Assembly (NCBI RefSeq): GCF_011207455.1
Contig: NZ_CP048877.1
Span: 1,232,576 to 1,296,575, forward strand
Length of the DNA stretch: 64,000 nucleotides
Source: Thermosulfuriphilus ammonigenes
Lineage (GTDB): Bacteria > Desulfobacterota > Thermodesulfobacteria > Thermodesulfobacteriales > ST65
Direction of reading: 5' to 3'
Position numbers and translations under genes: made by a program. Shown in pieces: positions 38,730-64,000 of the stretch; position 1 is the first letter of the stretch, and every line of letters begins with the position of its first letter. The notes under the pieces are model-generated. The model was given only the letters and a program-made list of their open reading frames with translations, had not been told where the DNA came from and searched no databases.

Positions 38730-39794
38730 CTAGCCTCTGGCCCCCTTCCTGGGCTGATAGAGACAGAGGGGCTCCTCGGCCAGGTAGTCACCACTCATCT
38801 CATAGGCCCGAGCCCGGCAACCACCACAGACCCGGATATATTCACAGCGACCACATTTGCCTTTGTAGGCTTTAAAATTACGCAGATTAAGAAAAACTTC
38901 TGAATGGCGCCAAATCTCTCCAAAATGGCTTTGACGCACGTTACCGCAGTCAAGCTCCAGATAACCGCAGGGCTGGACCTGACCTCGATGAGATATAAAG
39001 CAGAAGCCAATTCCCCCAAGGCAACCCCTGGTCACGGCATCAAGACCGTGGGTCTCGGGGGTAACCTCCAGGCCCTCCTCCCGGGCTCGCTCCCGGAGAA
39101 TACGATAATAATGGGGGGCACAGGTGGCCTTAATGTGGAGGGGAGCGTTTTTTGATTGCTCGTAAAACCAATTGAGAGTTTCCTCATATTTGGCCGCAGA
39201 TAGGGCTTGATGAGCCAGCTCCTTACCCCGACCGGTTGGCACCAAGAGAAAGATATGGTGGGCCACGGCCCCCAAGGAGACGGCAAGCTCAAAGACTTTG
39301 GGTATCTCGGCTAGATTGATCTCCGTAATGGTGGTATTGATCTGGAAGGGAATCCCGGCCTCTTTAAGGAGCCGAATCCCTCTTAGGGCCCCCTCAAAGG
39401 CCCCTGGCATCTTCCGGAAAGAGTCGTGGGCCTCCGCAGTAGCTCCATCCAGACTAATAGAGACCCGCTGAATACCGGAGGCCTTCATCTTCTCCGTCAC
39501 CTCTTCGGTGATCAAGGTTCCATTGGGAGCCATAACCATGCGCAGACCAAGCTCGGTGCCATAGCTGGCCAGCTCAAAGATATCGGGCCTCAAAAGTGGC
39601 TCACCGCCAGTGAGGATAATCACCGGTTGTCCAAGTTCCCGGATTTCCCTCAAGACCCGCAGACATTCCTCGGTGGAAAGCTCTCCTTCGTAAGGCCCCC
39701 GGGTGGCCGCTGCCCGACAGTGCACGCAGTTAAGGTTACAGTTCCGCGTCACCTCCCAGGCCACCAAACGGGGAACAAACTCCGGTCTCTTCAT
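38730..39794 (-). CDS. ahbD: heme b synthase AhbD-like radical SAM enzyme
   Basis: AhbD decarboxylates iron-coproporphyrin III to heme b, the last step of the alternative pathway. The 354-residue protein has the radical SAM motif TRNCNLNCVHCRAAA, LTGGEPLLRPD, and a C-terminal cysteine cluster: CGYLELDCGN, then CGRCEYIRVCGGCRARAYE. The start has GGGGAG upstream and lies 3 bases after the hemB stop, so hemB-ahbD is an operon. Other radical SAM proteins with a SPASM domain are related, but the adjacency to hemB favours AhbD. Confidence 0.9.
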   Translation of the reverse strand: MKRPEFVPRLVAWEVTRNCNLNCVHCRAAATRGPYEGELSTEECLRVLREIRELGQPVIILTGGEPLLRPDIFELASYGTELGLRMVMAPNGTLITEEVTEKMKASGIQRVSISLDGATAEAHDSFRKMPGAFEGALRGIRLLKEAGIPFQINTTITEINLAEIPKVFELAVSLGAVAHHIFLLVPTGRGKELAHQALSAAKYEETLNWFYEQSKNAPLHIKATCAPHYYRILRERAREEGLEVTPETHGLDAVTRGCLGGIGFCFISHRGQVQPCGYLELDCGNVRQSHFGEIWRHSEVFLNLRNFKAYKGKCGRCEYIRVCGGCRARAYEMSGDYLAEEPLCLYQPRKGARG

Positions 39795-39797
39795 GGA

Positions 39798-40775
39798 TCA
39801 TTCTCCCCTGAGAAGCCTGGCCGCCTGTTTGGCAAAATAGGTGAGAATAAGCACCGCCCCAGCCCGCCGAATGGAAACAAGGGACTCCATCATCACCGCC
39901 TCCTCCGAGAGCCAGCCTCTCTCGGCAGCTGCCTTGATCATGGCATATTCTCCAGAGACCTGGTAGGCCGCCAAGGGATGAGTAAATTCCTCTCTTAAAC
40001 GGCGGATAATATCCAGATACGGCAGGGCCGGCTTAACCATCAGGATATCAGCCCCTTCTTCGACATCCAGAGCGGCTTCCCGGATGGCCTCGTTGCTGTT
40101 GCCAGGATCCATCTGATAGCTCTTGCGATCCCCGAACTGAGGAGCACATTCAGCCGCTTCCCGGAAAGGACCATAGAAGCTGGAAGCATATTTCACGGCA
40201 TAAGACATTATGGAGACCATAGAGAAACCCGCCTCATCCAGGGCCTCTCGGATCCGGCCCACCCGACCGTCCATCATGTCAGAGGGGGCGACTATATCGG
40301 CCCCGGCCTGGGCGTGAGAGACGGCCACCCGAGCCAGCACCTCCAAGGTAGAATCATTATCAACCGCCTCTCCCTTTAAAAGACCACAGTGGCCATGGCT
40401 AGTGTATTCACAGAGACAGACATCAGTAATAATCACCAGCTCGGGGACAGCCTTCTTGATGGCCGCTATAGCTTTCTGAACCACCCCTTTTTTACTCCAG
40501 GCCTCCGAGCCGGTTTTGTCTTTCTTTTCTGGCAGACCAAAGAGGATAATGGCCGGAATCCCCAGCCCGGCCACCTCCTCGGCCTCCTTGACCGCCTCAT
40601 CTACAGAAAGCTGAAAGACTCCCGGCATAGATGAGACCGGATTGCGAACCTTTTTACCCGGACATATAAAAAGGGGATAAATAAGGTTTCTTATGGAGAG
40701 ATCCGTCTCCCGAACCATAGATCTCAGGGTCTCTGTGCGCCTTAGCCGACGGGGACGATATTCGGGAAAGATCAT
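39798..40775 (-). CDS. hemB: delta-aminolevulinic acid dehydratase
   Basis: HemB condenses two 5-aminolevulinate molecules to porphobilinogen. From the ATG at 40775 (AAGGAGGAGAAATAAA upstream) the protein has about 325 residues. Visible are the zinc site in [14 protein letters not shown] (three Cys as in zinc-type HemB), Schiff-base lysines in [15 protein letters not shown] and [12 protein letters not shown] longer frame runs to 40847 but has no good start support. It is the step after HemL and is followed directly by ahbD. Upstream is the TPR gene. Confidence 0.97.
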
Positions 40776-40849
40776 TTTATTTCTCCTCCTTACCTCAAAA
40801 AGGCCTCTTGGCTTAGGATAATCCAGATAAGTAGGCCTGTCATCCAATC

Positions 40850-41467
40850 TTACTTCTTGAGGGCCTCTCTGGCAGCCACATTCTGCGGATCAAGGAGGAG
40901 AACGCGAAGGAATATCTGACGGGCTTCCTTCTTCTTGCCCTGCCACGTGAAGATCCGGCCAAGCTCTACCAAGAAGTCCAAACTGGAGGGATAAAGCTTC
41001 AACATTTTACGGGCCACCTTTTCGGCCAAAGGGGCCTTGTTCTGGAGTCTGAGGGCCACCGCCAGTCGGAGGTTGGCATAGTAATTATAGGGGTCTTTGG
41101 AGATGATCCGGTTCATGAGACGTTCAACCTTACCCCAGTTCCCCCGGGCCATAAGAGGCAGAGAGAGCCCCAAAAGGGGTTCTATGGATTCTGGTCTAAC
41201 CTCGGCCGCCTTTTGATAATAGGCAATGGCATCACCATACTTACCAGAAAGGTAATAAAGCCAGCCCAGACGAAGGTTGAGAAGATAGCGCCGAGGGGCC
41301 TCCTGATAGAGAGGAAGCAGGGCCTTAATGGCCTCTTTGTAGGCCCCCATCTTCTCGTAGCGATACGACTCCACAAAGGCCTTGGATATTTCAGAGGCCG
41401 AAAAGGCCCCGGCCTGGGCGGAGAAAACAACCAAGACCAGGAAAAGCAGAAGACAAAACCTCCTCAT
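40850..41467 (-). CDS. exported TPR protein
   Basis: The 205-residue protein has a signal peptide ([20 protein letters not shown]) and then TPR-like helical pairs: [36 protein letters not shown], followed by repeats with P-x-N-x-x-A spacing ([47 protein letters not shown]). It is a periplasmic protein-interaction module. AGGAGG lies before the ATG. It follows the barrel gene by 69 bases, with a short G-C hairpin between, and precedes hemB. Probably a partner of the upstream barrel or transporter-peptidase, but this is inferred from position only. Confidence 0.82.
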
Positions 41468-41514
41468 TTTGACCTCCTAAGATCTATCGGAATTACCGAA
41501 GGGGAGAAATGGGT

Positions 41515-41528
41515 GGGGGGAAGCCCCC
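41515..41528. promoter_or_regulatory. G-C hairpin between barrel and TPR genes
   Basis: GGGGG and CCCCC arms with a GAAG loop lie just after the barrel-gene stop codon. There is no T-tract. It could partly terminate or separate expression of the barrel and TPR genes. Confidence 0.35.
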
Positions 41529-41536
41529 TTAAAACC

Positions 41537-42391
41537 CTAAAAGCTTCCCCCGAGGCTTACGGTAACAATAGTCTGAGAAGCCTTATCGCCATAGCCGACA
41601 TGCTCCAGCCACTGCTGGTTGAGGTTTAGCGCCAGACGAAGATTATTCTCTAGGCGATAGCCCACTTCGGCCTCAAGGCCCCCAAGATAGCGGTCCGCCA
41701 GGTTATAGACAACAAAACCCTCATTTTTGACGGCAAAGATCTGCTGGCCCACCCAACCGGCCAGCTTATAGTCCATATTGCCTACGGTATAGGTAAAGAC
41801 CTGCTCTAGGGAGTAATAGTTATCCATAGAAATGCCAACATCTTTGTCCTTATGGATGTAGTAGAAACGGGTCTCTGAGTAGAGACGGCGACCGAAGGCC
41901 GAGAAGAAAAAGCCATAATGAGGCCTAATCTGGAAGACATCCAGATCAACATTGCTATCACTATAATCAGAGTAATCAATCTCCAGGCCAGCGTTCCATT
42001 CGGCCGGACGGAAGTAGGTGACCTTGGCAAAATAGATCTTGCCCTGATCAGTAAGGTCATCATCGCTGCTGATGTAATGAAAACCCAGGCGAATGGCGTG
42101 GTTTTTCAGGATTTGGCCGGTATTGGTATAAGCCAGAGTAAAGTCAGTCTGATCCAGATCGGGCAAGGTATCATAGTTAATGCGAGTCTGAGTCAGACCA
42201 AGCTCTAAGGCATGAACCTGCCGATCGGAGAGGTTTAGATAGGCCGTAGCCGCCCAGCCATCATCTTTAACATCAGAGCCGCCAAAGTTCACATAAGAGC
42301 CGTAGAGGCTTCCGTAGGTGGAGATCTCCCCGGCCCAGACAGAAGAGGCCAACATCAAAAAAACCGCCAGAAAACTCCATACCTTCTTCAT
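41537..42391 (-). CDS. outer-membrane beta-barrel protein
   Basis: The 284-residue protein has a signal peptide (KKVWSFLAVFLMLASSVWA, then GE) and alternating hydrophobic/polar strands with many aromatic residues (RFYYIHKDKDVGISMDNYYS, HYGFFFSAFGRRLYSE), ending in VSLGGSF, a C-terminal Phe as required for outer-membrane insertion. This looks like a barrel of about 12-14 strands. I cannot assign a porin family. It overlaps the urea-transporter/M23 gene by 4 bases, so it is translationally coupled to it. It could be the outer-membrane component of that system. Confidence 0.82.
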   Translation of the reverse strand: MKKVWSFLAVFLMLASSVWAGEISTYGSLYGSYVNFGGSDVKDDGWAATAYLNLSDRQVHALELGLTQTRINYDTLPDLDQTDFTLAYTNTGQILKNHAIRLGFHYISSDDDLTDQGKIYFAKVTYFRPAEWNAGLEIDYSDYSDSNVDLDVFQIRPHYGFFFSAFGRRLYSETRFYYIHKDKDVGISMDNYYSLEQVFTYTVGNMDYKLAGWVGQQIFAVKNEGFVVYNLADRYLGGLEAEVGYRLENNLRLALNLNQQWLEHVGYGDKASQTIVTVSLGGSF

Positions 42392-44505
42392 GTAACCCTC
42401 CTTAAAGTTATTTTTTGACCTTCTCTTTCTACCCTCACCAGGGAAAGACCTTTTAAGGGATCAAGGCGGACAAAAGTTTTGACTCTGGTTCGATCCACTC
42501 CGCCCTGAACCTCTCCCTGAATTTCCTCTGAAGAGCTGAAAAAATAAGTCCCTGTTACCCGGGCTAAATCCCGCCGAAAGGAGGCCATAAAGGTAAACAG
42601 AGCCCGCTTTAGGGGGCCAAAATAGGCCTCCAGCGGGAGGTTATCTTTCCAGCAAAGTTCCTTTTGATAGACAAGCGGCACCCGGGGCAAAGCCAGAAAA
42701 AGGGCTTTTAAGGCTTCATCTCCTCCATCGTGGCGCAAAAGATAAAAGGTCCCTTGGTCTTTGCTAAAATAAAGTCTGTCACTGCCAGAATCAAAAAAAT
42801 ATGTTCCATCAGGGGCCATACAAACCTTAAGGCACAAAGTCTCTGGTTCTCCCACCTCCCTATTTACTTCATATATGATTTCTTCATCCAGAACAAAGGA
42901 GAACTTTGACTCCAGGGCCTTATCGGGATAGAGGGCTCTCAGGCACTCTCCCTCTTTAGGAATATCGTTAGCCCGGAAAATAAGCCGCCCTTCTTTGATG
43001 ACCGCATAGTGCAGGAGACTAAAGGGGGCTGTGGGGGCCCCGAGTTCGGCGGAAAACTGTATTTGAAGATGGAGGTGCGGCTGGGGAGAGTAGCCCGAGT
43101 TACCGCAGAGCCCCAAAAGATGCCCCTTTTCCACCCATTGGCCAGGAGAAACCTTGATGGATCCCCGTTTAAAATGGGCCAAAAGGACATAAAATCCCCT
43201 CTCATCGTAGATCAAGACATAGTTGCCCCAGTTATCGATCTCATTAACGGAACCCGGAGGGTTGTCATCGATGTTGTTTACTAAAGAAATCACTCGGCCT
43301 CTTACCGGGGAGAGAACCGGCTTGCCAAAGCAGTAATAGTCTTCCAGAAGCTGCCCCTGACCAGAGAAGGTTTTCCCTTCGGCATCGGTAATGACAAAGT
43401 CTAAGGCGTAACGCCAGATTCCCTTGTGGGTCCAGGGCCCATCAAAGCCCTGCCAGACAGTCCAGTCTCCAGAAAAGGGAAGGGTAAGGGTTCTATTAGT
43501 GCCTCGAAAACGGGCTAAGTAAGAAAGATAATAATCCAGGGTGCGCTCTGGACTGCCCCGATAATAAAGGGTCAGGTAGGGATAACCAGCCAGCCCCAAG
43601 GGGTAGATAAAAGAAAGGGTCACCACATTAAAGGGCAGGGTAAAGGCGGGAATACCGTAATGAGCCCAGAAGAAACCGGCGGCCTCCAGAAGAAAAGGAG
43701 AGACAACCACGGCAATAGCGGCCAGGATATAGCTCCGGGGGCCGGGGATGAGGAAGACTCCCCCGATAGCCATGGCGATGAGACTAAAATTAAAGGTGCT
43801 AAGGTCGGTGAGGGCCTGATAAAAAGACCCCTTCATCAAGGCTAAAGTAGTCACTCCCAAAACGTAACCCGAGACGGCCAGAAAGAAGAGAATTCGGGAG
43901 GCCAAAAAGATTACTACCAGAAAGATAAGACCCCCTAGGAGATGAGGACTAAATAATAAGGCCCCCAGGGCCTTAAGGGGCCCTGTTAGCCAAAGGGGCA
44001 GGCGAAGATCAAGAGAGTTAAAGGCCGGGTGTCGAAGATAGAAGTCATTAACCAGAAGATTGGAATAGCGATAGGCGGCCAAATAGATGGTCGTGCTCAC
44101 CAGAACGAAGGGAACATTGATCACCGGCAGGCGAAAAAAGTAATAAAAGACATGGGCCAGAGAGAAGGTAACCACAAAGGTCATCAACCCGGCAGTAACA
44201 ATAAAAAAGATGGTAAGAGGTGTAATTTTAAAAAGAAAACCGATAGAAAGCCCCACCAAGAGTGGATTGTAGGTGTAATATCCTGAGCCGCGAAAGATCT
44301 CCCGCAACCCCAAAAAACGGGCCAGTTCATAGGCTGAAATCACGCAGAGAAGACCTGCCAGACCAACATTAGGGTTGATAAAGGTGGCCGCCACCAGAAC
44401 CAGCCCCAGAAGATGGTTTTCAAAAAAGAAGATCTCTGTGTAGCTATTAGCTACCGTGCGCAAATAGGAGCCAAGCCACCCCAAGAGGGCCTTTAAGTCC
44501 TTCAT
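42388..44505 (-). CDS. fusion of urea-transporter-like membrane domain and M23 peptidase domain
   Basis: A 705-residue protein. The N-terminal half (about 1-320) has about ten membrane helices with urea-transporter (UT) pattern, including GYYTYNPLLVGLSIGFLF and a second repeat TDLSTFNFSLIAMAIGGVF. From about 350 comes an M23/LytM-like domain: YALDF, SPVRGRVISLVNNIDDN, GNYVLIYD, VLLAHFKRGS and HLHLQIQ. The first zinc-ligand position appears to read RYALD instead of HxxxD, so peptidase activity is uncertain. A further C-terminal part of about 200 residues has no recognised domain. It lies between the PLP decarboxylase and the barrel gene, and probably exports or releases a product. Confidence 0.8.
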   Translation of the reverse strand: MKDLKALLGWLGSYLRTVANSYTEIFFFENHLLGLVLVAATFINPNVGLAGLLCVISAYELARFLGLREIFRGSGYYTYNPLLVGLSIGFLFKITPLTIFFIVTAGLMTFVVTFSLAHVFYYFFRLPVINVPFVLVSTTIYLAAYRYSNLLVNDFYLRHPAFNSLDLRLPLWLTGPLKALGALLFSPHLLGGLIFLVVIFLASRILFFLAVSGYVLGVTTLALMKGSFYQALTDLSTFNFSLIAMAIGGVFLIPGPRSYILAAIAVVVSPFLLEAAGFFWAHYGIPAFTLPFNVVTLSFIYPLGLAGYPYLTLYYRGSPERTLDYYLSYLARFRGTNRTLTLPFSGDWTVWQGFDGPWTHKGIWRYALDFVITDAEGKTFSGQGQLLEDYYCFGKPVLSPVRGRVISLVNNIDDNPPGSVNEIDNWGNYVLIYDERGFYVLLAHFKRGSIKVSPGQWVEKGHLLGLCGNSGYSPQPHLHLQIQFSAELGAPTAPFSLLHYAVIKEGRLIFRANDIPKEGECLRALYPDKALESKFSFVLDEEIIYEVNREVGEPETLCLKVCMAPDGTYFFDSGSDRLYFSKDQGTFYLLRHDGGDEALKALFLALPRVPLVYQKELCWKDNLPLEAYFGPLKRALFTFMASFRRDLARVTGTYFFSSSEEIQGEVQGGVDRTRVKTFVRLDPLKGLSLVRVEREGQKITLRRVT

Positions 44506-44516
44506 GGTCTAGGAGG

Positions 44517-45869
44517 TTACTCTTTCTGGAGACGAAGATGTTCGGGAAGTCTTTCCCGAGCCACAATATCTTCAAGATCTTCGGCCTCGCGGATAAGATG
44601 GGGGTGACCCTCTTTGTCAATGAGAACCACTGCTGGTCGGGGTCTTATAAACTGCATCCACTGGGTGACATTGTAGGCTCCCACCGGGGAGATGATCAGC
44701 CTGGAGCCCCGAGGAAGAGGGGGCAGATGGGCCTGATCAGCAACCACGTCGATATTCATACAAAGGGGTCCGTAAAGAATGCAGGGTTCAAGAGGGCCGG
44801 GGACATCCTCCTCCAGTTCTAGACGAAAATTGTACCAAAAGGCCGTAAAGAGCACATTGACTCCGGCATCAACCACATAAGCCCTGGTGCCGTCGGGAAG
44901 CCTTTTGCTGGCATGAACCGTAGTGATAAGAAAACCGGCCTCATCAACGATGGCCCGTCCGGTCTCCAGGATAAGGGTAGGAAAGTCATTTGGCCGCAGC
45001 CGGGACAGCAGGGTATCACAGATGGCTTCAGCAAAATCCTCAAGAGGGGGAACGGCTACGTCTGGAGAAAGATAGATACCTTTTAGACGATTGAGCGAGG
45101 GAAGACCGCCTCCTATATCAAGATATTCTATCTTCAGATCAAAATCGTCCTCTACCTGATAGGCAAACTCAACCATCTTGGCAATGGCCCGTCCGTAGGC
45201 CCGGGGTTCAAGAATAAAAGTGCCCAGATGGCAGTGGAGACCATGAAGAATAAGATGCCCTCCGGAGACCAAACGCTTTACAGCATCCAGGGCCTGGCCA
45301 GATTCTAGGTTGAACCCAAAGCGGGTCCACTGAGGGCTTATGCCCGTGTCCATATTGAGCCTAAGGCCCACTTTTATCGGCTGGCCCAGCCCTTTAGCCA
45401 CCTCTTCGAGATCATAGATCTCATCAAAGTGGTCTATGTTGATAATGGCTCCCTCCTCGGCGGCTACTTTCAGGGCTGAAAGGGGCTTGTAGGGACCGTT
45501 AAAAATTATCTCTGACCCCGGGACCCCCAGCCGTCTGGCCTTCTGGTACTCGAGCTCGGAGACAACTTCAGCTGTCTCTCCCTCCTGATGAAGGATGGCA
45601 CAGATAGCATCTAAGTAATTGGTCTTATAAGACCAGCTAAAATGGACATTGGGATATCGGGTGGCAAAAGCCTGATGAATAGTTCGATATTTCTCCCGCA
45701 AACGTCGCTCAGAGAAAACAAAAAGTGGCGAACCAAAACGGGCTACCAGATCACTTATCGGAACACCATCAATTTCGGAACGCACGTGACGACCATAGGA
45801 AGGACCAAACTTGTTCATCAGACCTACTTGGACCTTTTTGATAATCGGCTTCTCATAGGGTTCTTTCAC
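44517..45869 (-). CDS. PLP-dependent decarboxylase (DAP/ornithine type) with leader-like N-terminus
   Basis: The 450-residue protein has the alanine-racemase-like barrel of fold-type III decarboxylases: SYKTNYLDA with the PLP lysine, GLHCHLGT, LDIGGGLPS, ETGRAIV, GPLCMNIDVV and SPVGAYNVTQWM with RPRPAVV. DAP decarboxylase has C-E-S-x-D where this has CMNID, so the substrate differs. The first 30 residues (EPYEKPIIKKVQVGLMNKFG) are outside the fold and contain YEKPII, a YxxPxI pattern like RiPP leaders. The GTG start has AAGGAGGA upstream. It follows the ATP-grasp gene by 14 bases. Confidence 0.85.
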   Translation of the reverse strand: MKEPYEKPIIKKVQVGLMNKFGPSYGRHVRSEIDGVPISDLVARFGSPLFVFSERRLREKYRTIHQAFATRYPNVHFSWSYKTNYLDAICAILHQEGETAEVVSELEYQKARRLGVPGSEIIFNGPYKPLSALKVAAEEGAIINIDHFDEIYDLEEVAKGLGQPIKVGLRLNMDTGISPQWTRFGFNLESGQALDAVKRLVSGGHLILHGLHCHLGTFILEPRAYGRAIAKMVEFAYQVEDDFDLKIEYLDIGGGLPSLNRLKGIYLSPDVAVPPLEDFAEAICDTLLSRLRPNDFPTLILETGRAIVDEAGFLITTVHASKRLPDGTRAYVVDAGVNVLFTAFWYNFRLELEEDVPGPLEPCILYGPLCMNIDVVADQAHLPPLPRGSRLIISPVGAYNVTQWMQFIRPRPAVVLIDKEGHPHLIREAEDLEDIVARERLPEHLRLQKE

Positions 45870-45883
45870 GTCTTCCTCCTTGA

Positions 45884-46922
45884 TCAGCTTTCTCCTCGGG
45901 TAATAATCCTCTGGAAGGTTTCCATATCCGTTACCAGATCATAGGTGTAGCGAATATAAAGTCGGCCAGCCTCGTAGTGGGAGTCTCTTTCTACCGGAAG
46001 CCCCACTGCTGCCCGCAATAGTCGGGCCGGTAAATTGAGCCCGGCACCAGTAGCAAAATAGACCCAGGCTGGAAAACGAGGATTAATTTCTATAAGGTAG
46101 ATCTTGTCTTCAGTAGCAATACACTCCAGCTCAAAGGCTCCTCGCCAGCCATAGGCCTTAAGAAAGGCCTCTGCGGCCTTGATAATGGACTCATTCTTAA
46201 TGGTCACTCCGGTCCAGATCTTACCCCAGGCGGTAATCCAGAGCTTCTTGATGGCCATAAGGCCCAGGGAGCTCCCCTGGCCGTCGCCAAGTCCGATAAC
46301 ATTTATCTCCTCCCCCTGAACGACCTTCTGAACCAGGACCGGATAACCCCATTCGGCAACTATTTTCTGAAAGGAAGACTCGGCCTCTTGATTAGGTATG
46401 AACTCGGTAGGCCTTGTAGAAAAGACCTTTGATCATGGCCGGAAAGCCGACCCGATCAAGGGCTCGGTAGAGTTCCGACGGGGAGGTAACCGCCTCTGTC
46501 GGAGGGATAGCCAGCCCTATCCGCTCAGCCACCTCCGGGAGATGCTCTTTGGAGCGAAGCTCAAACTGCTCCCAGGTGGGCAAAAAGGTCTTTATTCCTC
46601 GGGATAAAAGCTTCTCCTTTCCCTTAATATAGAGAGGAAGTTCGGCATCAAGGGTGGGAATGACTACATCCAGACCGGCCACTTCCTGGATATAAAAGAG
46701 CCGGCCCAGATAGTCTGCTTCTTCACTGGAGGGATAAGGCATAATAAAAGAGCGCTCTACCAACCAATCCAGATAGATTCCAGGCTCCATGGCGTCATAG
46801 GCCAGACCAATGGTTCGAAGATTAAGACGCCCATCTTCCTTAAGGCTTCTGATAACGGCGATCCCAGGGCCGGGATTATCCACAGCGTTAATACCTGAGA
46901 CCGCCACACTTAGCTCCTCCAT
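45884..46922 (-). pseudogene. ATP-grasp ligase split by a single frameshift
   Basis: The upstream part (46392-46922) codes for a normal ATP-grasp N-terminal region to KGLFYKAYRVHT, then hits TAA. The downstream frame, shifted by one base, continues with PNQEAESSFQKIVAEWGYP and VQKVVQGEEINVIGLGDGQG and ends after LIEINPRFPAWV, the metal-binding end of ATP-grasp enzymes. The full length would be 346 residues, consistent with one extra base near 46393-46397. It could be a sequencing error, a real inactivation or an unusual +1 frameshift. It lies between the PqqD-like and decarboxylase genes in a tight operon. Confidence 0.85.
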
Positions 46923-46944
46923 AATCGCCTCTCCTCTAAAAGTT

Positions 46945-47181
46945 TTAAATAAGATGATAGACCCTTAATTGAGCCAAAAAATCCATCAGATCTCTCTGGG
47001 CCACCTCGGGTTCGACGACAAATTTGTCGAGAAGAGACTGCAAAATCTGCTCGGTGTCTTTTCCGTCTTTAAGTTGTTGAATAATCCACAGCCCTACCCT
47101 GTTAGTGGTAAAGCTATTACCAGTAGCCGGATCAAAGATGAAACCCTCATCGTTTATGGCCAAACGAGAAAGCTTGTCCAT
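46945..47181 (-). CDS. PqqD-like RiPP recognition element protein
   Basis: From the ATG at 47181 (AAGGAGG upstream) the protein has 78 residues: MDKLSRLAINDEGFIFDP, then TGNSFTTNRVGLWIIQQL, then a helix DGKDTEQILQSLLDKFVV and a final helix RDLMDFLAQLR. This matches the PqqD winged-helix fold, which binds leader peptides in RiPP pathways. A longer frame from 47241 is unlikely. It is the first gene of the cluster ending at the TPR gene, and lies 22 bases before the ATP-grasp gene. Confidence 0.8.
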   Translation of the reverse strand: MDKLSRLAINDEGFIFDPATGNSFTTNRVGLWIIQQLKDGKDTEQILQSLLDKFVVEPEVAQRDLMDFLAQLRVYHLI

Positions 47182-55625: not shown

Positions 55626-55760
55626 ATCTCTCCTCCCTCGCCACAAAGGGTTCACCATTGTGCATTCCTAGCCTATTTGGCCCTTAGTGTCAAAGATTTT
55701 ATAGGAGCTCAATTCTATCTTGCCTTAAAAAAGAGAATCTGTATTTTTAATGATCGGTTT

Positions 55761-56675
55761 ATGAAAAAGATTCTTTTAGCCCACTTTTGTTTGTTTTTGG
55801 TTTTTCTCTCGCCAGTCCAGGCTCTCCAGGTTTATACGCTAAAGGAGGGAAGCGATCTTGTAGGAGAGATAAAAACCTATATCCTCAAAGAAGAGGACAC
55901 CCTTTTAGATGTCGCGAGGGCCTTTGATTTAGGCTACAATCAGATTGTAGCGGCCAATCCAGATATTGATCCCTGGATTCCCCCCCCCGGAAAAAAAATT
56001 ATTATTCCTTCAGCCTATGTTCTTCCTAATGTTCCCCGGGTTGGGATCATTATCAATCTGGCTGAAATGAGACTATATTATTTCCGTCAAAAAAACGGGG
56101 CACACCTTGTCTATACTTCTCCGGTAGGGGTGGGAAAAGAAGGTTATCTCACCGAATTAGGAATCTATACAATTGTTAATAAAGCCAAAAACCCAACCTG
56201 GTTCGTCCCGGCTTCTATCAGGGCCGTGGAACCCGACTTACCAGAGAGAGTACCTCCCGGTCCAGATAATCCTTTAGGTGATTACATTATGCATCTTTCC
56301 CGAGGAAGCTATGCTATCCATGGTACTAACAAACCCTGGGGCGTAGGAAGACGAGTAAGTCACGGGTGTATTAGGCTTTATCCCGAAGATATAGAAAAGC
56401 TTTTTCCTTTAGTAAACTTAGGAACCCCTGTAAATATTATCTATCAGCCCATCAAGGTAGGACGAAAAGGGTATGATATATATGTTCAGGTCTTTAGAGA
56501 TTTCGAAAAAAAAATCTCTGACCCCTTTTTTTATACCCTTGGTCTTTTAGCCCGATATGGCCTTTCAGGCGAAATAGATTTCTTTCTTCTACGTCGGGCC
56601 TTAAAAGAAAAGACGGGGGTTCCGGTTCTCATATCCCGCCCCCGGAACCCCGAACTGACCGAAAATGATCGCTGA
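55761..56675 (+). CDS. L,D-transpeptidase (YkuD) with LysM-like N-terminal domain
   Basis: The protein (304 residues from the ATG at 55761) has a signal peptide (KKILLAHFCLFLVFLSPVQA), a LysM-like part (ILKEEDTLLDVARAFDLGYN to IIIPSAYVL) and a YkuD domain ending with HGTNKPWGVGRRVSHGCIRLY, with the catalytic Cys and His. These enzymes form 3-3 crosslinks or attach lipoproteins to peptidoglycan. The longer frame from 55677 starts with TTG and lacks a clear RBS. It converges with the lipoprotein gene (3-base gap). Confidence 0.88.
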   Translation: MKKILLAHFCLFLVFLSPVQALQVYTLKEGSDLVGEIKTYILKEEDTLLDVARAFDLGYNQIVAANPDIDPWIPPPGKKIIIPSAYVLPNVPRVGIIINLAEMRLYYFRQKNGAHLVYTSPVGVGKEGYLTELGIYTIVNKAKNPTWFVPASIRAVEPDLPERVPPGPDNPLGDYIMHLSRGSYAIHGTNKPWGVGRRVSHGCIRLYPEDIEKLFPLVNLGTPVNIIYQPIKVGRKGYDIYVQVFRDFEKKISDPFFYTLGLLARYGLSGEIDFFLLRRALKEKTGVPVLISRPRNPELTENDR

Positions 56676-56678
56676 GGC

Positions 56679-57035
56679 CTATTTTTTGAGACCTTTAATA
56701 AAAATCCTTTCTGTCTTTTTAGAGATGGCCTCGGCCCTTTCAGCCGCACTTACGGCCCGGTTTGTGGCTGCATCGGCCCGATCAGCCGCCATCTCGGCCG
56801 CTTTAGCCGCAGCTTCAGCTCTCTGGGCTGCAGCCTCCAATCTGCTTGCCAGTTCTTCTAAACGGGCACTAGCCGCTTCAGCCCGGGCCGCTGCTTCTTT
56901 GGCCTCCCTGGAGGCCTGTATCGCCGATTCTACCAAGGCCCTATCGCTCTTAGACAGACCACAGCCTGCAGGTAAGACCAACAGGGATGCCAAACCTAAA
57001 GACGCTGCAAGATACCGCCAAGACTTTACGTGCAC
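56679..57035 (-). CDS. alanine-rich coiled-coil lipoprotein, Lpp-like
   Basis: The 118-residue protein has a lipoprotein signal with LPAGC (Cys25), then about 80 residues rich in Ala and Glu with heptad spacing (AKEAAARAEAASARLEELAS, AAEMAADRADAATNRAVSAA), and a C-terminal KGLKK. This resembles Braun's lipoprotein: a coiled coil whose terminal lysine can be bound to peptidoglycan. The lipobox is slightly imperfect (Pro at -3). The GTG start has GGAAGGAGGG upstream. It lies between two L,D-transpeptidase genes. The region is richer in GC than its flanks. Confidence 0.8.
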   Translation of the reverse strand: MHVKSWRYLAASLGLASLLVLPAGCGLSKSDRALVESAIQASREAKEAAARAEAASARLEELASRLEAAAQRAEAAAKAAEMAADRADAATNRAVSAAERAEAISKKTERIFIKGLKK

Positions 57036-57060
57036 GTCTATCCCTCCTTCCCTAAAAAGT

Positions 57061-58041
57061 ATGCCTACTTTTTACCAGCCAATAATCAAATATTTCAAGT
57101 TAATTTTGTCTATCCTAGTAGTAATCGGATATGAAACATCAATTTGGGCTTTTAATGATTATCCTCAAAAGTTAATTGTTATTCGAAAAGATACCCGCAC
57201 ATTATCTACATATTTAAATGGAAAATTAAAAGAACAATTTCCTATTTCTTTGGGATTGGATCCGATTTCAGCCAAGACAAAATCTGGAGATGGAGCTACT
57301 CCAGAAGGTTTTTATACTGTAACCTATAAAAAATTTCGGAGTCGTTTCTATCGCTTTTTGGGTCTATCCTATCCTAATCTCCATGACGCCGATCAGGCCT
57401 ATTTGGCAGGGATAATATCCCGAGATGATTATCAGCTCATCTGGGAAAAGACAAAGAAAGGGCTACCTCCTCCGGGAAAAACACCTTTAGGAGGTGGAGT
57501 TGGAATTCATGGAGGCGGGCTTCTTAAAGACACAAAAGATGGAGATAAAATTCGAGACTGGACAGAGGGTTGTATAGCCTTGAAAAATAAAGATATGGAA
57601 AAACTTTTTGCCTGGGCAGAAATAGGAACCCCGGTGCTGATTCTTAACGCTCGAAGAAGTTTTTTTGATCAACTAAAAAGCCTTTCTATTTTAGAAAATC
57701 GTCTGAGTTCGGGATTACCTATCAAAAACTACACCCAAAAATGGAGGGGAGAATTCATTCTTGGCCCTTTTAAAGTAAAAAGCATTCTCCAAGAAACTTT
57801 AGATTATCAGCGCTCCATAGAGCTCCTCATCTATCAAGATGATCGTCTTCTTACCTATATATATGATCACAATGGAGATGGAATTTTAGGATACCGAGAC
57901 TCTCTTATTCATTATCAAAAGGGTTATTCCTTGAATTACAAAAATATAAAAGATCTTTTTCTCCACTATCCCCCTCTACCTAAAAATTTTCTAATGGTTG
58001 ACAGTGAGAAAAAGACCATGAAAATTTCTGCCCAAAAATGA
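57061..58041 (+). CDS. L,D-transpeptidase-like protein (YkuD)
   Basis: The protein (326 residues from the ATG at 57061) has an N-terminal hydrophobic signal or anchor (IIKYFKLILSILVVIGY), a YkuD domain with GIHGGG and WTEGCIALKNKDM (catalytic Cys), and a C-terminal extension of about 140 residues (LIYQDDRLLTYIYDHNGDG). An open frame upstream of 57061 lies on top of the lipoprotein gene and is not used. No Shine-Dalgarno is present. The gap to the divergent lipoprotein gene is only 25 bases. The sequence here begins to be AT-rich. Confidence 0.82.
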   Translation: MPTFYQPIIKYFKLILSILVVIGYETSIWAFNDYPQKLIVIRKDTRTLSTYLNGKLKEQFPISLGLDPISAKTKSGDGATPEGFYTVTYKKFRSRFYRFLGLSYPNLHDADQAYLAGIISRDDYQLIWEKTKKGLPPPGKTPLGGGVGIHGGGLLKDTKDGDKIRDWTEGCIALKNKDMEKLFAWAEIGTPVLILNARRSFFDQLKSLSILENRLSSGLPIKNYTQKWRGEFILGPFKVKSILQETLDYQRSIELLIYQDDRLLTYIYDHNGDGILGYRDSLIHYQKGYSLNYKNIKDLFLHYPPLPKNFLMVDSEKKTMKISAQK

Positions 58042-58056
58042 TTTAGGAGGAAAAAA

Positions 58057-58905
58057 ATAGAGATAGTAACCTCTATCGAAAAAATGACTCAAATAAGCCT
58101 TAAGTGGCGGAAAGAAGGCCAAAAAATAGCCTTCGTTCCCACGATGGGTTATTTCCATGAGGGTCATTTAAGCCTGATGCGCTTGGCTAGAAAAAAGGGA
58201 GATCGTTTGGTAGTCAGTGTTTTTGTTAATCCTACTCAGTTCGGTCCCCAAGAAGATTTTGAAAAATATCCCAGAGATAAAAAAAGAGACATAGAATTAG
58301 CTAAGAAAGAAGGAGTCGATGTCCTTTTTTGTCCCTCTAAAGAAGAAATGTATCCTCCAGAATATCAGACTTATGTTGAGGTAACAGAACTTTCTCGTCC
58401 TCTTTGTGGAGAGAGTCGTCCTGGCCATTTTCGAGGAGTAGCTACTGTTGTTTTAAAATTATTTAATATAATCCGTCCTCATTTGGCGGTCTTCGGGGAA
58501 AAAGATTATCAACAACTTTTAGTAATAAAAAAAGTGGTTCAAGATTTAAATCTTTCGGTAGAAATTGTTTCCCATCCTATAGTAAGAGAGATAGACGGTT
58601 TAGCTATGAGTTCGCGAAATGTCTATCTATCTTCTGAAGAAAGAAAATCTGCTCTTTCTCTATTCAAAAGTCTTAAATTAGCTCAAGAATTAGTTAAAAA
58701 AGGAGAAAGAAATAGTGATAAAATTCGAAAAATAGTTAGAGATTTTATTCTCTCTCATCCATATACTAAAATAGATTACATTGAACTTAGGGATCCCAAA
58801 AATTTAATTGAAAAAAAAGAAATATCCGGACCAACTCTTTTAGCCATAGCTATATTTGTAGGACAAACTAGATTAATAGATAATATTATTTTGGAGATAG
58901 ACTAA
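58057..58905 (+). CDS. panC: pantothenate synthetase, apparent ATA start
   Basis: PanC joins pantoate and beta-alanine to make pantothenate. The chain has VPTMGYFHEGHLSLM, VNPTQFGP, RPGHFRGVATVV and FGEKDYQQ, all conserved in PanC. The first ATG (58084) gives 273 residues, but AGGAGG at 58045-58050 is best placed for an ATA at 58057, from which the protein begins IEIVTSIEKMTQISLKWRKE, matching the usual PanC N-terminus (MEIITSVEEM). Initiation at ATA is rare in bacteria. The gene is followed by panD. Confidence 0.88.
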   Translation: MEIVTSIEKMTQISLKWRKEGQKIAFVPTMGYFHEGHLSLMRLARKKGDRLVVSVFVNPTQFGPQEDFEKYPRDKKRDIELAKKEGVDVLFCPSKEEMYPPEYQTYVEVTELSRPLCGESRPGHFRGVATVVLKLFNIIRPHLAVFGEKDYQQLLVIKKVVQDLNLSVEIVSHPIVREIDGLAMSSRNVYLSSEERKSALSLFKSLKLAQELVKKGERNSDKIRKIVRDFILSHPYTKIDYIELRDPKNLIEKKEISGPTLLAIAIFVGQTRLIDNIILEID

Positions 58906-58907
58906 AA

Positions 58908-59297
58908 ATGTATAGAAAATTTCTAAAAGCCAAAATTCATAGAGTAACTCTTACCGAAGCTAATCTTAATTATGAAGGAAGTTTAACTTTAGACCCTTTA
59001 CTTATTGAAGCCGCTGGAATTGCTCCTTTTGAAGCTGTTCAGGTCTATAATCTGGCTAATGGAGCCAGATTTGAAACTTATGTTATAGAAGGAGAGAGAG
59101 GATCAGGAAAAGTATGTCTAAACGGAGCAGCTGCCAGAATGGGAATTCCGGGAGATCTTTTAATTATCGCGACTTATACCTATTATACTCCTCAAGAACT
59201 AGCAGAAGCTTCAGTAAATCTTGTCTTTGTTGATAATTATAATCGTGTAGTTTCAGTTAAAAAAGAACCTATCTTAACAAAAACATCTCCGATATGA
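58908..59297 (+). CDS. panD: aspartate 1-decarboxylase
   Basis: PanD makes beta-alanine from aspartate; it cleaves itself to form a pyruvoyl group. The 129-residue protein has KAKIHRVTLTEANLNYEGSLTLD, with the Gly-Ser self-cleavage site near residues 24-25, then VYNLANGARFETYVI and GERGSGKVCLNGAAARMG. The ATG follows the panC stop by 2 bases. The sequence is AT-rich, as are its neighbours. Confidence 0.95.
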   Translation: MYRKFLKAKIHRVTLTEANLNYEGSLTLDPLLIEAAGIAPFEAVQVYNLANGARFETYVIEGERGSGKVCLNGAAARMGIPGDLLIIATYTYYTPQELAEASVNLVFVDNYNRVVSVKKEPILTKTSPI

Positions 59298-60610
59298 TGC
59301 GTCGATTCTTTCTGATTAGTCTAGGATGTCCCAAAAATAGAGTTGATAGTGAATATTGTTTAGGATTGTTTTCCGAAATAGGAGGAGAACTAGTTTTAAA
59401 TCCAGAAGATGCCGATTATGTCATTGTTAATACTTGTGCATTCATTCGTCCAGCCGTAGAAGAGTCTATAGAAACTATCCTTGAACTTGCTGAGTTAAAA
59501 AAAGAAAAGCAATTTAAACTTATTGTAAGTGGCTGTCTACCTGGACGATATAAAGAAGAATTAATTAAAGAATTACCAGAAGTAGATGCTTTTTTAGGAC
59601 CAGAGCCTTTTCACGAATTAAAAGAGGCCCTTGAGGCTCTCGAAAATGGTAAGAAGTATATCTCTCTTAATACTAAGAATTATAAAAAGAATAATCAAAT
59701 TCCAACTAGGATATCTAGTATTAGTCCCTTTTACGCCTATTTAAAAATAAGCGAAGGTTGTTCTAATAGTTGTTCATATTGTACCATTCCTTTAATAAGG
59801 GGGCCAAAAAGAAGTAGATCTTTTGATATTCTCGTTTCAGAAGCTCAAAAGTTAGTAGCATCGGGAATAAAAGAGATTATCATAGTAGGTCAAGATATTA
59901 CTGATTATAAATATCAAAATAAAGATCTTATTTCCCTACTTAAAGAATTAGATAAAATAGAAGACCTTAAATGGATAAGATTATTATATCTTCATCCCAA
60001 AAGAATAACTAAAAAACTTCTAGAACATATAAACTACAGTTCTAAAATAGTACCTTATTTTGATATACCTATACAGCATGCTTCAGACAGAATTTTAAAT
60101 CTTATGGGTAGAGGTTATAATCAAAAAGACTTAGAAAGTATATTTCAAAAAATTAGAAAAACAATTCCTAATGCCTCTTTAAGAACTACTGTTATGGTAG
60201 GGTTTCCTGGTGAGACAGATAAAGATTTTGAAGTGCTACTTAAATTTATAGAAAAAATAAAATTTGACCATTTAGGATCATTTATATTTTATCCAGAAGA
60301 GGGAACTCCAGCTGCTTTATATAAAAAACAAATTCCTTTAAAAATAAAGGAAGAAAGATATAAATTAATAATGGAAAAACAACAATTAATTTCATTAGAA
60401 AAAAACAAAGAAAAAGTAGGTAAAATAATAGATGTTTTAATTGAAGGAATATCTGAAGAAAAAGGAGACTTTATAGGAAGAGGTTATCATCAAGCCCCAG
60501 AAATAGACGGTTACACTTATATTAAAGCGAACTCTTTACAACTAGGAAATATTATCCCTATAAAAATAACAAATTTTAAAGAATATGATTTAATAGGAAA
60601 ACCAATTTAA
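59294..60610 (+). CDS. rimO: ribosomal protein S12 methylthiotransferase RimO
   Basis: RimO adds a methylthio group to an aspartate of ribosomal protein S12 using two iron-sulfur clusters. The 438-residue protein has SLGCPKNRVDSEY and CAFIRPAVEES (UPF0004 domain), the radical SAM CSNSCSYCTIP motif, and a C-terminal TRAM domain. Overlap with panD is 4 bases (ATGA). Its end overlaps the convergent DUF6485 gene by 4 bases. GC here is very low: 13 of 60 bases in the line at 60001-60060. Confidence 0.95.
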   Translation: MMRRFFLISLGCPKNRVDSEYCLGLFSEIGGELVLNPEDADYVIVNTCAFIRPAVEESIETILELAELKKEKQFKLIVSGCLPGRYKEELIKELPEVDAFLGPEPFHELKEALEALENGKKYISLNTKNYKKNNQIPTRISSISPFYAYLKISEGCSNSCSYCTIPLIRGPKRSRSFDILVSEAQKLVASGIKEIIIVGQDITDYKYQNKDLISLLKELDKIEDLKWIRLLYLHPKRITKKLLEHINYSSKIVPYFDIPIQHASDRILNLMGRGYNQKDLESIFQKIRKTIPNASLRTTVMVGFPGETDKDFEVLLKFIEKIKFDHLGSFIFYPEEGTPAALYKKQIPLKIKEERYKLIMEKQQLISLEKNKEKVGKIIDVLIEGISEEKGDFIGRGYHQAPEIDGYTYIKANSLQLGNIIPIKITNFKEYDLIGKPI

Positions 60611-60810
60611 ATAACTTTTTCTATAACTAATTTAGCAAAATGCTCAAAACTTCTATCATAAGTTTTTTCAAACTTGGAAGGAAAACAACATCCAGGAAGT
60701 TGTCTCATAGATAAGTGATATTTCAGACACTCACAACAGATACCTTTTTTAGGACAAGGCTCATAAGTACAGTTACAATGTTGAAGATTTTTTTCTTTTT
60801 GACATTCCAT
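60607..60810 (-). CDS. DUF6485 cysteine-rich small protein
   Basis: The 67-residue protein has nine cysteines, including HCNCTYEPCPKKGICCECLKYH and then LPGCCFP. The pattern matches DUF6485, a small family of unknown function in anaerobes, likely a metal-binding or iron-sulfur protein. It has AGGAGG upstream and lies 11 bases after gyrB on the minus strand. Confidence 0.8.
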   Translation of the reverse strand: MECQKEKNLQHCNCTYEPCPKKGICCECLKYHLSMRQLPGCCFPSKFEKTYDRSFEHFAKLVIEKVI

Positions 60811-60821
60811 AATAAAACCTC

Positions 60822-63215
60822 CTAAATATCTAATTCTCTAACTTCTAAAGCATGTGTTTGAATAAATTCACGTCTTGGTTCTACTTTATCTCCCATAAGT
60901 GTTGTAAATAACTCTTCAGCTTTTTCAGCATCACTTATATTTATTCTCAGTAAAGTTCTAGTTTCTGGATTCATTGTTGTTTGCCATAACTGATCAGGAT
61001 TCATCTCACCTAAACCTTTATATCTTTGAATTGTCAAATTTTTGATACCTTCAGTTCTTATCAAAGAAAGAAAGTTTTGCAAATTATCTAAAATAAATTC
61101 ATTATCTCTAATTTTTACCTTTAACTTTTTACCATAAAATGGCTTAATTTTTTGAAAAAGTTTATAGGCTTTATGATATTCTGGAATAAGAGGAATATCA
61201 GCTGATATATTAGCCGTTAAATATGACAAGTCTTTAGAAATAACGTTAAATTCATAGCCTGAAGGATGAGTTTTTGATGGTTTAATTTGACTAACTTTAT
61301 AATTTTTATTTCTCAAATAATTAGATAAAGATTCTACAAATTCTATCTGATTAAATTGATCTGCAGAAGAAACATCCATCTCCAAAAGAGAAATAATTAA
61401 ATCTATCCATAATCCTTTTTTAGAAACATCATTTATTGTTTTTATAAATAAAGAGAGATTTTTAAAAAGATCATTTAACATTTTTGGAGAAACTTCTTTA
61501 TCCTCAGGTAAAAAACTTACAGACATATTTTTTAAAGATCTCTTAAACAAGAATTCATCAAGAGCTTGATCATCTTTCAAATAAAATTCTTTTTTATTCT
61601 CCAAAATTCTATATAAAGGTGGTTGAGCAATAAATAAATAACCTCTCTCTATTAATTCAGGCATTTGTCTATAGAAAAAAGTTAATAAAAGAGTTCTTAT
61701 ATGAGCTCCATCTACATCAGCATCTGTCATTATAATAATTTTATGATAACGACATTTATCAGGATTAAAATCTTTAGGTCCTATACCTGTTCCCAAAGAA
61801 GCTACTAATTGTCTAATTTCTTCACTAGAAATCATCTTATCAAAACGAGCTTTTTCAACATTAAGAATTTTTCCACGAAGAGGAAGAATAGCTTGAAAAC
61901 GTCTATCTCTACCTTGTTTAGCACTTCCTCCAGCTGAATCTCCTTCTACAATAAATAATTCTCTAATCTCTGGATCTTTAGCTTGACATTCTGCTAATTT
62001 TCCTGCAACAAGAACATCAAAAGTTTCTGACTTTTTTCTAACTAATTCTCTAGCTCTTTTAGCTGCTTCACGGGCTCTAGCAGATTCAACCACTTTAGCT
62101 ATTATCTTTCTAGCTACACTAGGATTTTCTTCTAGATAAATTGAAAGACCTTCTGCGACAATAGATTCAACAACAGACTTAATCTCACTATTACCTAACT
62201 TTGTTTTAGTTTGACCCTCAAATTGAGGGTTAGGCATTCTTACAGAAACAACAGCAGAAAGACCTTCTCTTAAATCATCTCCTTCTAAACGAATTTTCAT
62301 AGATTTTGGTAAATTTTTATCATTATTTATATATTTATTGATACATTTTGTTAAAGCAGCCCTAAAACCAGATACATGAGTTCCACCTTCTTTTGTATGA
62401 ATATTATTTACATAAGAATATAGTTTTTCAGAGAAGCTATCATTATATTGAAAAGCGACCTCTACTTGTATAAAATCTCTATTACCAGAAATATATATAG
62501 GTTTAGGATGAATAACATCTTTTTTACGATTTAAATATTGAACAAATTCAACAATACCGCCTTTATAATGAAAAACATCTTCAGCTCCGGTTCTTTCATC
62601 TTTTAAAACAATTTTAATATTTTTATTTAAAAAAGCTAATTCCCTTAATCTAGATTGAAGAATTTCATATTTAAATTCTGTAGTTTCTTTAAAAATTTGA
62701 GGGTCAGGTTTAAAAGTAATAGAAGTACCCGTCTTTTTTGTTTTACCAACTTTTAAAAGAGGAGTAACAGGTTTACCTCTTTTGTATTCTTGTTTCCAAA
62801 TACAACCATCTCTTTTTACTTCAACTATTAACCATTCTGATAAAGCATTTACCACAGAAACACCAACACCATGGAGACCACCAGAAACTTTATAAATCTG
62901 ATTATCAAATTTTCCACCTGCATGTAACTTGGTCATTACAACTTCTAAAGCTGATATACCTTCAGTAGGATGAATATCAACCGGAATTCCACGACCATTA
63001 TCCTCAACAGTAACAGAATTATTTTTATGGATAGTCACCTTTATAAAAGAACAATATCCAGCTAAGGCTTCATCTATACTATTATCAAGAACTTCATAAA
63101 CGAGATGATGAAGTCCATCTTCACCAGTAGATCCTATATACATAGCAGGCCTTTTTCTTACTGCTTCCAAACCTGCTAAAACTTTTATATGAGTAGCATC
63201 ATATTTTTTAATCAT
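60822..63215 (-). CDS. gyrB: DNA gyrase subunit B
   Basis: GyrB supplies the ATPase of DNA gyrase. The 797-residue chain has the GHKL ATPase motifs ([39 protein letters not shown]), the transducer, TOPRIM ([34 protein letters not shown]), a Gram-negative-type insert of roughly 165 residues before the C-terminal end, and [18 protein letters not shown] near the end. The codon use is very AT-rich. The gene follows dnaN by 9 bases with no recF between. Confidence 0.97.
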
Positions 63216-63224
63216 TTTTTCACC

Positions 63225-64000
63225 TTAATCATTTAATTTTATAGGCATAATTATACCTAAATAACCATAATCTTCAGGACCTAAAATAAGAGCAGGAGAA
63301 GAAGGACTATTCATAATTAAATCTATAACATCTGAAACCATAGAAGAACAAATATCAATTAAATATTTAGCATTGAAACCTATCTCAAAATCATCTCCGG
63401 TATAAGAAACATCTATTATTTCTTGAGCTTCACCTATATCTGAATATACAGAAGAGACTACCATTTGATTATTAGTAATACTTAATTTTATTGATTTAAA
63501 TCTATCAGGAGAAAGAATAGAAACTCTCTTTAGAGTATCAAGAAAGATGATCTTATCAACCGAGACGATTCTCTCCTTAGTTTCTGGAATAACAGCTTGA
63601 TAATCTGGATATTGACCTTCAATTAAGCGAACAATTAATATATCTTGATCGTTAGATATAAAAAAGTGATTATCTTTAATTCCAAGCAAAAAAATACCTT
63701 CAGAATCAGCTAATTTTTTTATCTCTTGGGCCGCCTTTTTAGGAAGAATTATTCCTTCATGGAGATCTAAATTATCTAAATTTTCAATATCTCTATCAAT
63801 AAGTGCTAAACGATGGCCATCTGATGCAACAAATCTTAATTTATTATTTATCTTATGAATAAAAATTCCAGACAATGTAAACCTTGTCTCTTCTGTAGAA
63901 ACGCAAAAAATGGTCTTTTCTATCATCTCTTTAAGAATATTTTTTTCAATGCTAACAGTATTTACACCATCTGTTGATGGTATAGAAGGAAAATCCTCAG
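63225..64000 (-). CDS. dnaN: DNA polymerase III sliding clamp beta subunit, N-terminus cut
   Basis: The beta clamp holds DNA polymerase III on DNA. The window holds the C-terminal part; the 5' end lies beyond 64000. Translation of the visible end reads EDFPSIPST and then EKTIFCVSTEETRFTLSG, with FVASDGHRLAL and GYLGIIMPIKLN at the C-terminus, all conserved in DnaN. The frame is open to the right edge. Together with gyrB this suggests proximity to the chromosome origin; no dnaA or oriC element is seen. Confidence 0.95.
   Translation of the reverse strand, partial: EDFPSIPSTDGVNTVSIEKNILKEMIEKTIFCVSTEETRFTLSGIFIHKINNKLRFVASDGHRLALIDRDIENLDNLDLHEGIILPKKAAQEIKKLADSEGIFLLGIKDNHFFISNDQDILIVRLIEGQYPDYQAVIPETKERIVSVDKIIFLDTLKRVSILSPDRFKSIKLSITNNQMVVSSVYSDIGEAQEIIDVSYTGDDFEIGFNAKYLIDICSSMVSDVIDLIMNSPSSPALILGPEDYGYLGIIMPIKLND

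Follow-up and report, generated by a model that had tools for sequence, protein, structure and literature searches.

A recurrent six-gene cassette of Thermosulfuriphilus ammonigenes in which a PqqD-like protein may dock on a peptide tag of a PLP decarboxylase

Six adjacent genes on the minus strand

The window that we analysed is a stretch of 64,000 nucleotides within the 2.29-Mb single-contig genome of Thermosulfuriphilus ammonigenes. On its minus strand, genes for a PqqD-like protein, an ATP-grasp enzyme, a PLP decarboxylase, a UT/M23 membrane protein, a β-barrel and a TPR protein follow one another in that order, with intergenic gaps of 22, 14, 11, −4 and 69 bases, so that the six tightly packed genes and the 4-base overlap of the original prediction were reproduced. 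The features are listed below.

46945..47181, minus strand: PqqD-like RRE, 78 aa (PF05402; nearest solved structures TbiB1/TfuB1; residue conservation)
46392..46922, minus strand: N-terminal part of the ATP-grasp enzyme, ending early in its frame (CPS-like NCBIfam matches; homology to intact relatives)
46391..46400, minus strand: one-base frameshift of the ATP-grasp enzyme, position approximate (aligned DNA of four relatives; 70 of 70 other copies open)
45884..46390, minus strand: C-terminal part of the ATP-grasp enzyme, in the other frame (PF15632, 34 bits on 45884-46258; frame reading)
44517..45869, minus strand: fold-III PLP decarboxylase, 450 aa, GTG start (Pfam, homologues, model)
45804..45869, minus strand: N-terminal tag of the decarboxylase, residues 1-22 (Y5, P8, I10, G16, N19-K20-F21-G22)
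42388..44505, minus strand: UT-fold membrane domain fused to an M23 peptidase domain (Pfam, residue conservation)
41537..42391, minus strand: 14-strand outer-membrane β-barrel with a signal peptide (AlphaFold; fold match)
40850..41467, minus strand: TPR protein whose N-terminus has a hydrophobic, signal-like segment (Pfam TPR; conserved in 56 loci)

Pfam analysis showed that the decarboxylase matched Orn_Arg_deC_N with 107 bits, and that the membrane gene at 42388-44505 matched both UT (PF03253, 213 bits) and Peptidase_M23 (48 bits). An ATP-grasp ligase had been predicted between the PqqD-like protein and the decarboxylase. Its position was as described, but its frame is not intact: the frame stops at TAA 46392 and resumes in another frame to 45884, and the DNA alignment with four relatives revealed one extra base in the window copy. 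All 70 of the other copies that could be scored were open, making the window copy the only broken one of 71. The broken frame suggests that the pathway may be decaying in this genome, or that the extra base is a sequencing error.

The cassette recurs across phyla

A search with one genome per species yielded 80 decarboxylase relatives (54-84% identical), and the six cassette proteins were encoded side by side in most of these 80 loci. When every ORF of 60 aa or more from the relatives' loci was clustered, the decarboxylase family was found in 78 loci, ATP-grasp in 72, UT/M23 in 62, TPR in 56, PqqD in 50 and the barrel in 44; among the same ORFs no seventh gene of comparable frequency recurred beside the cassette, the next family being present in 15 loci. 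The relatives, mostly MAGs, span about 20 phyla according to their record labels, some of which may be binning errors because of this origin. In some relatives, a histidine-kinase-like gene (a family in 15 loci; L003:13185-15010) or a DUF4405 gene (a family in 10 loci) lies near the cassette.

Within the phylum of the window, the decarboxylase was detected in 16 of 395 genomes. The family PqqD (at least 58 bits) was found in the identical 16 genomes and in no others, and the next PqqD matches among the 395 scored at most 50.6 bits. Furthermore, five Aquificota-type genomes with an unlinked decarboxylase each encode a family PqqD elsewhere, and the tag described below is kept in all five. The unlinked PqqD adjoins an ATP-grasp gene in four of them; for the fifth, G002, none was found within the neighbouring 4 kb. 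Split or rearranged cassettes were seen at L018, L019, L020, L022, L037 and L030, either with the decarboxylase unlinked from PqqD/ATP-grasp or with the membrane genes inverted; both tag and PqqD are retained at these loci, and in the L019 genome the PqqD gene has no adjoining ATP-grasp. Apparent natural fusions of PqqD, ATP-grasp and decarboxylase were rejected, as the 800-880 aa frames in high-GC genomes proved to be stop-free out-of-frame extensions.

Collectively, these data indicated that the six-gene set is a real, widespread and conserved cassette. The PqqD/ATP-grasp/decarboxylase trio does occur together elsewhere, across phyla, and the fallback that its gene order is due to chance was not borne out. 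We found no prior description of the gene set in the open-access papers searched, among which the cassette is apparently undescribed.

A conserved N-terminal tag on the decarboxylase

The original prediction had singled out a leader at the decarboxylase N-terminus, outside the fold and with a YxxPxI pattern. The segment, KEPYEKPIIKKVQVGLMNKFG, is indeed present there. Homologues of the LysA/FslC/BtrK type aligned only from residue 26-34 on; since the characterised homologues thus begin at about residue 26, residues 1-25 are the family's own addition. In the AlphaFold model residues 1-30 were predicted to be disordered (pLDDT 44-61), and the rest was largely confident.

The motif of the tag, [Y/W]xxPx[I/L], was present in every complete homologue, in line with the expectation that the leader would be conserved. 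Counted over 80 non-redundant members, Pro occupied position 8 and Tyr or Trp position 5 in 80/80, and Ile or Leu position 10 in 77/80. The mean information content was 3.2 bits for residues 5-10, compared with 1.35 bits for the linker (residues 23-31) and 2.9 bits for the catalytic core. One of the six patterns used in the first search for relatives included the tag, a possible bias in these counts; the genome searches with the whole protein were run without the tag pattern, and the motif was found in every match whose N-terminus lay on the contig.

The PqqD-like protein has a predicted YxxP pocket

The first gene of the cassette had been assigned to the PqqD-like RREs, and this assignment held: the protein matched PF05402 with 50.2 bits (curated cut-off 23.4), and its best matches among solved structures were the lasso RREs TbiB1 (E 9e-11) and TfuB1. 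With the model for PqqD of PQQ biosynthesis (TIGR03859) it scored 16.7 bits, below the cut-off of 46.

In LppB, the Pro kink of the YxxP leader is held by N33 and its Tyr hydroxyl is bonded by D70; the leader Pro lies between V35 and F74, and the pocket for the leader residue two after Pro is lined by F74, M78 and L83, among others (PMC13381572, 2026). PbaB1, an RRE with a Trp leader, has Q79 in place of the Asp and G42 in place of the Asn (PMC13381572). We found that N33-D70-F74-M78-L83 of LppB align without gaps and with identical spacing to N27-D64-F68-L72-L77 of the window protein, residues that are conserved in 41, 41, 42, 42 and 40 of 43 sequences, respectively. The alignment suggests that the pocket is competent for a YxxP ligand; as these residues are common to other YxxP-binding RREs, they speak for competence and not for the actual partner. 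Asp64 was kept in 100/102 members with a Tyr tag and in 1/5 with a Trp tag (Fisher 1.4e-5), an exception being L043, which has a Tyr tag yet Gly at RRE position 64. On the tree the Tyr-to-Trp change occurred three times independently, twice with loss of the Asp, which is not significant; with three independent changes and two of them concordant, the association is suggestive only.

The tag as the probable ligand of the RRE

No short precursor gene had been visible to the original prediction, and a genome-wide search agreed: in 13 cassette genomes a profile of the tag matched the decarboxylase N-terminus only, indicating the absence of a separate precursor carrying the motif in these genomes. 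There was no match in two genomes without the cassette, and what looked like a second copy of the tag in G084 belongs to a partial decarboxylase at the end of a contig. A six-frame scan of the 80 loci for the tag motif gave no other recurrent match, and no short-ORF family besides PqqD recurred at 60 aa or above, a range below which precursors with a different motif may lie. Hence the separate motif-bearing precursor that marks RiPP and lasso systems, and that a graspetide-type ATP-grasp would act on, was found neither at the 80 loci nor in the 13 cassette genomes. In addition, the B2 transglutaminase-like protease and the asparagine-synthetase-like cyclase of lasso pathways were absent from the cassette proteins (Pfam) and from the recurrent neighbours.

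The pocket appears competent for YxxP, a ligand with this motif is strictly co-inherited, and no other came to light; from this well supported but indirect evidence we infer that the RRE probably docks on the decarboxylase tag. The PqqD-like protein would then serve as an RRE adaptor that binds the flexible tag at the decarboxylase N-terminus instead of a precursor peptide, and the tag would insert into the RRE cleft in the manner of lasso leaders.

It is also conceivable, though unlikely, that the tag is itself a substrate or carrier: the RRE would present it, the ATP-grasp would add an amino acid, with Lys20 as the obvious site, and the decarboxylase would act on the tethered residue. The segment that follows the motif is conserved as well (Gly16 in 72/80, Asn19 in 70/80 and Lys20 in 74/80), the homologue BtrK decarboxylates a carrier-bound glutamate (PMC7857480), and discrete RREs as a rule have a substrate that is modified (PMC7470986). 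However, the Lys is shifted or lost in Thermosulfurimonas relatives (REKKS), in L043 (NPLG) and in Campylobacterota (SKAG), whereas the docking motif stays. The decarboxylase would in such a scheme be both enzyme and substrate, its tag a built-in leader plus core (NKFG) whose attached amino acid is processed in cis or trans; we consider this improbable, with a low but real chance of being right. If true, the pathway would use a peptide tether as its carrier in place of an acyl carrier protein, and its product would exit via a UT-fold/M23/barrel exporter. That a RiPP precursor escaped notice and is the true client of the RRE, the decarboxylase tag being a decoy or a relic of that system, we regard as quite improbable. 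Short precursors are the usual targets of RREs, and their genes are easily overlooked, but the tag profile pointed to the decarboxylase only in the 13 genomes, and neither the scan of the 80 loci nor the ORF clustering (at least 60 aa) revealed another candidate.

The decarboxylase and its likely substrate

The closest solved structure to the decarboxylase was FslC/FigC (7kh2), followed by LysA; BtrK was also matched. The decarboxylase thus ranks nearest to enzymes of capped or carrier-bound substrates, and this ranking by score, with FigC first and BtrK among the matches, hints that it may belong with the Clade 2 (non-polyamine) alanine-racemase-fold decarboxylases FigC, SbnH, AcsE, BtrK and MccE. 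Members of this clade other than DAPDC serve specialised metabolism (PMC7857480).

FigC has Met355 in place of the usual acid beside the catalytic Cys (PMC7857480), and the equivalent Met371 of the window enzyme is invariant in the family. With residue roles taken from that study and correspondence from our alignment, T327 and Y331 of FigC are retained as T342 and Y346, T330 is replaced by W345, and the citrate contacts H357, R387 and N389 are replaced by I373, Q403 and M405. Compared with diaminopimelate decarboxylases, the DAP-binding Arg is replaced by Thr342 and the acid after Cys by Met371. The FslC/FigC model NF041039 gave 215 bits against a cut-off of 500. From these residues the pocket appears to suit neither diaminopimelate nor N-citrylornithine, and Met371, Thr342, W345, I373, Q403 and M405 point to a side-chain-amine-capped amino acid as the probable substrate, the cap probably being a neutral, perhaps aromatic, group. 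That the decarboxylase is simply a LysA-like enzyme of ordinary lysine or polyamine metabolism among unrelated neighbours is highly improbable: diaminopimelate decarboxylase (TIGR01048) is its top NCBIfam match, but the 219 bits fall below the cut-off of 297.9, a true LysA (551 bits) lies elsewhere in the genome, other residues stand where DAP or a free distal amine would be bound, and the co-occurrence of the six genes extends across phyla.

The ATP-grasp resembles CPS-type enzymes, the nearest models being CPS-like (PRK12767), and in one relative its N-domain gave a weak PylC-like match. A natural guess is that it forms the amide that caps the side-chain amine of the substrate.

Envelope genes

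The prediction of an outer-membrane barrel and a TPR protein downstream was confirmed by the model of the former and the Pfam TPR matches of the latter. The barrel gene has no Pfam match, and AlphaFold gave a 14-strand barrel behind a signal peptide (pLDDT 94), with OmpG, CymA and FadL as the nearest folds. The window TPR protein showed weak matches to the TPRs of PgaA and Slam. In several relatives the barrel slot is occupied by a protein of 450-540 aa, most of these proteins having detectable N-terminal TPRs. Such longer proteins were seen at L054:11531-12949, L062:9126-10532, L076:11451-12800, L080:11512-12975, L081:11496-12896 and L078:9635-11263, in Delongbacteria, Elusimicrobia and Myxococcota-type relatives, with a C-terminus that looks barrel-like by eye; four of five that were scanned matched Pfam TPR, weakly in L054, with none in L062.

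The predicted fusion of a urea transporter with M23 stood as to its UT fold and M23 domain, but not as to a role in urea transport. The UT domain aligned with dvUT over its length, and the zinc ligands and catalytic His of the M23 domain (H360, D369, H444, H477 and H479) were invariant in 39 sequences. Where dvUT has its filter residues Q24 and E187 (dvUT numbering), the cassette UT domain is variable and Ala, respectively. With this filter lost, urea does not seem a likely cargo and was rejected as a candidate.

A proposed mechanism

By holding the tag, the RRE would bring the decarboxylase and the ATP-grasp ligase together. An amide would be made on an amino acid by the ligase, the decarboxylase would then take off the α-carboxylate to give a capped amine, and passage of this product through the envelope, or its maturation, would fall to the UT/M23 channel together with the TPR protein and the barrel. 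Taken jointly, that docking couples the two enzymes and that a decarboxylated amide is made and exported by the envelope genes seems somewhat favoured, the chemistry and export in full being considerably less likely than the docking. A small-molecule product and its export, as in the original prediction, are a plausible inference. The contact between RRE and ATP-grasp, the order of the chemistry and the export, with its direction and cargo, are likewise proposals; what ties the RRE to the ATP-grasp is adjacency and co-inheritance.

Relation to known systems

The cassette RRE shares with the lasso RREs TbiB1, TfuB1, FusB1 and LppB the PqqD fold, the contact residues with their spacing, and the [Y/W]xxPx[I/L] ligand motif. 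The cassette differs from those systems in that the motif is carried by a metabolic enzyme of 450 aa, the genomes tested yielded no precursor peptide, and genes for a lasso protease or cyclase are not among its recurrent members. Like FslC/FigC (7kh2), the decarboxylase has a Cys-Met motif replacing Cys-acid, suggesting a side-chain-capped substrate, and a presumed amide-forming partner. However, this partner is an ATP-grasp and not an NIS synthetase, the citrate contacts are replaced, and the FigC alignment begins after the tag.

BtrJ of butirosin biosynthesis is an ATP-grasp. The cassette resembles BtrJ/BtrI/BtrK in combining an ATP-grasp ligase with a fold-III PLP decarboxylase, the Btr substrate being tethered (for BtrI and BtrK, see PMC7857480); it differs in that no acyl carrier protein gene recurs, and an RRE and a peptide tag are found instead. 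As for the envelope genes, PgaA, BcsC, PelB and Slam are TPR-barrel outer-membrane exporters, and the longer TPR-bearing protein in the barrel slot of some relatives is reminiscent of them. In the window, by contrast, TPR and 14-strand barrel are encoded by two genes, the cassette has no recurrent polysaccharide synthase gene, and the inner-membrane partner is UT/M23.

RRE-based mining of peptide natural products assumes that the ligand is a precursor peptide. The occurrence of a conserved RRE's motif on a metabolic enzyme across about 20 phyla suggests that RRE-leader pairs may connect enzymes, a role that could explain some of the precursor-less RREs met in genome mining; the cassette would be a case of a peptide-handling module reused for holding metabolic enzymes together. 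With a 78-aa protein and a 22-residue tag it offers a compact natural system with clear point mutants, and it points to a possible metabolite, with a route for its export through the envelope, in numerous chemolithotrophs and anaerobes that are diderm.

Other genes in the window

Two bases past the TPR gene and on the same strand, 38730-40847 encodes a HemB-like protein and the heme b synthase AhbD (593 bits), which belong to the alternative heme pathway; HemB and AhbD were rejected as cassette members because they do not recur beside the cassette in other genomes. Two adjacent L,D-transpeptidase-like genes were recognised by eye at 55677-58041, the second with an Ala-rich N-terminal stretch that may reflect a wrongly extended start. 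From 58000 to 64000 the GC content is 29-38%, compared with about 52% for most of the window, possibly an origin-proximal fall, and gyrB-like (60822-63215) and dnaN-like (63225-63998, open end) genes were named there by eye.
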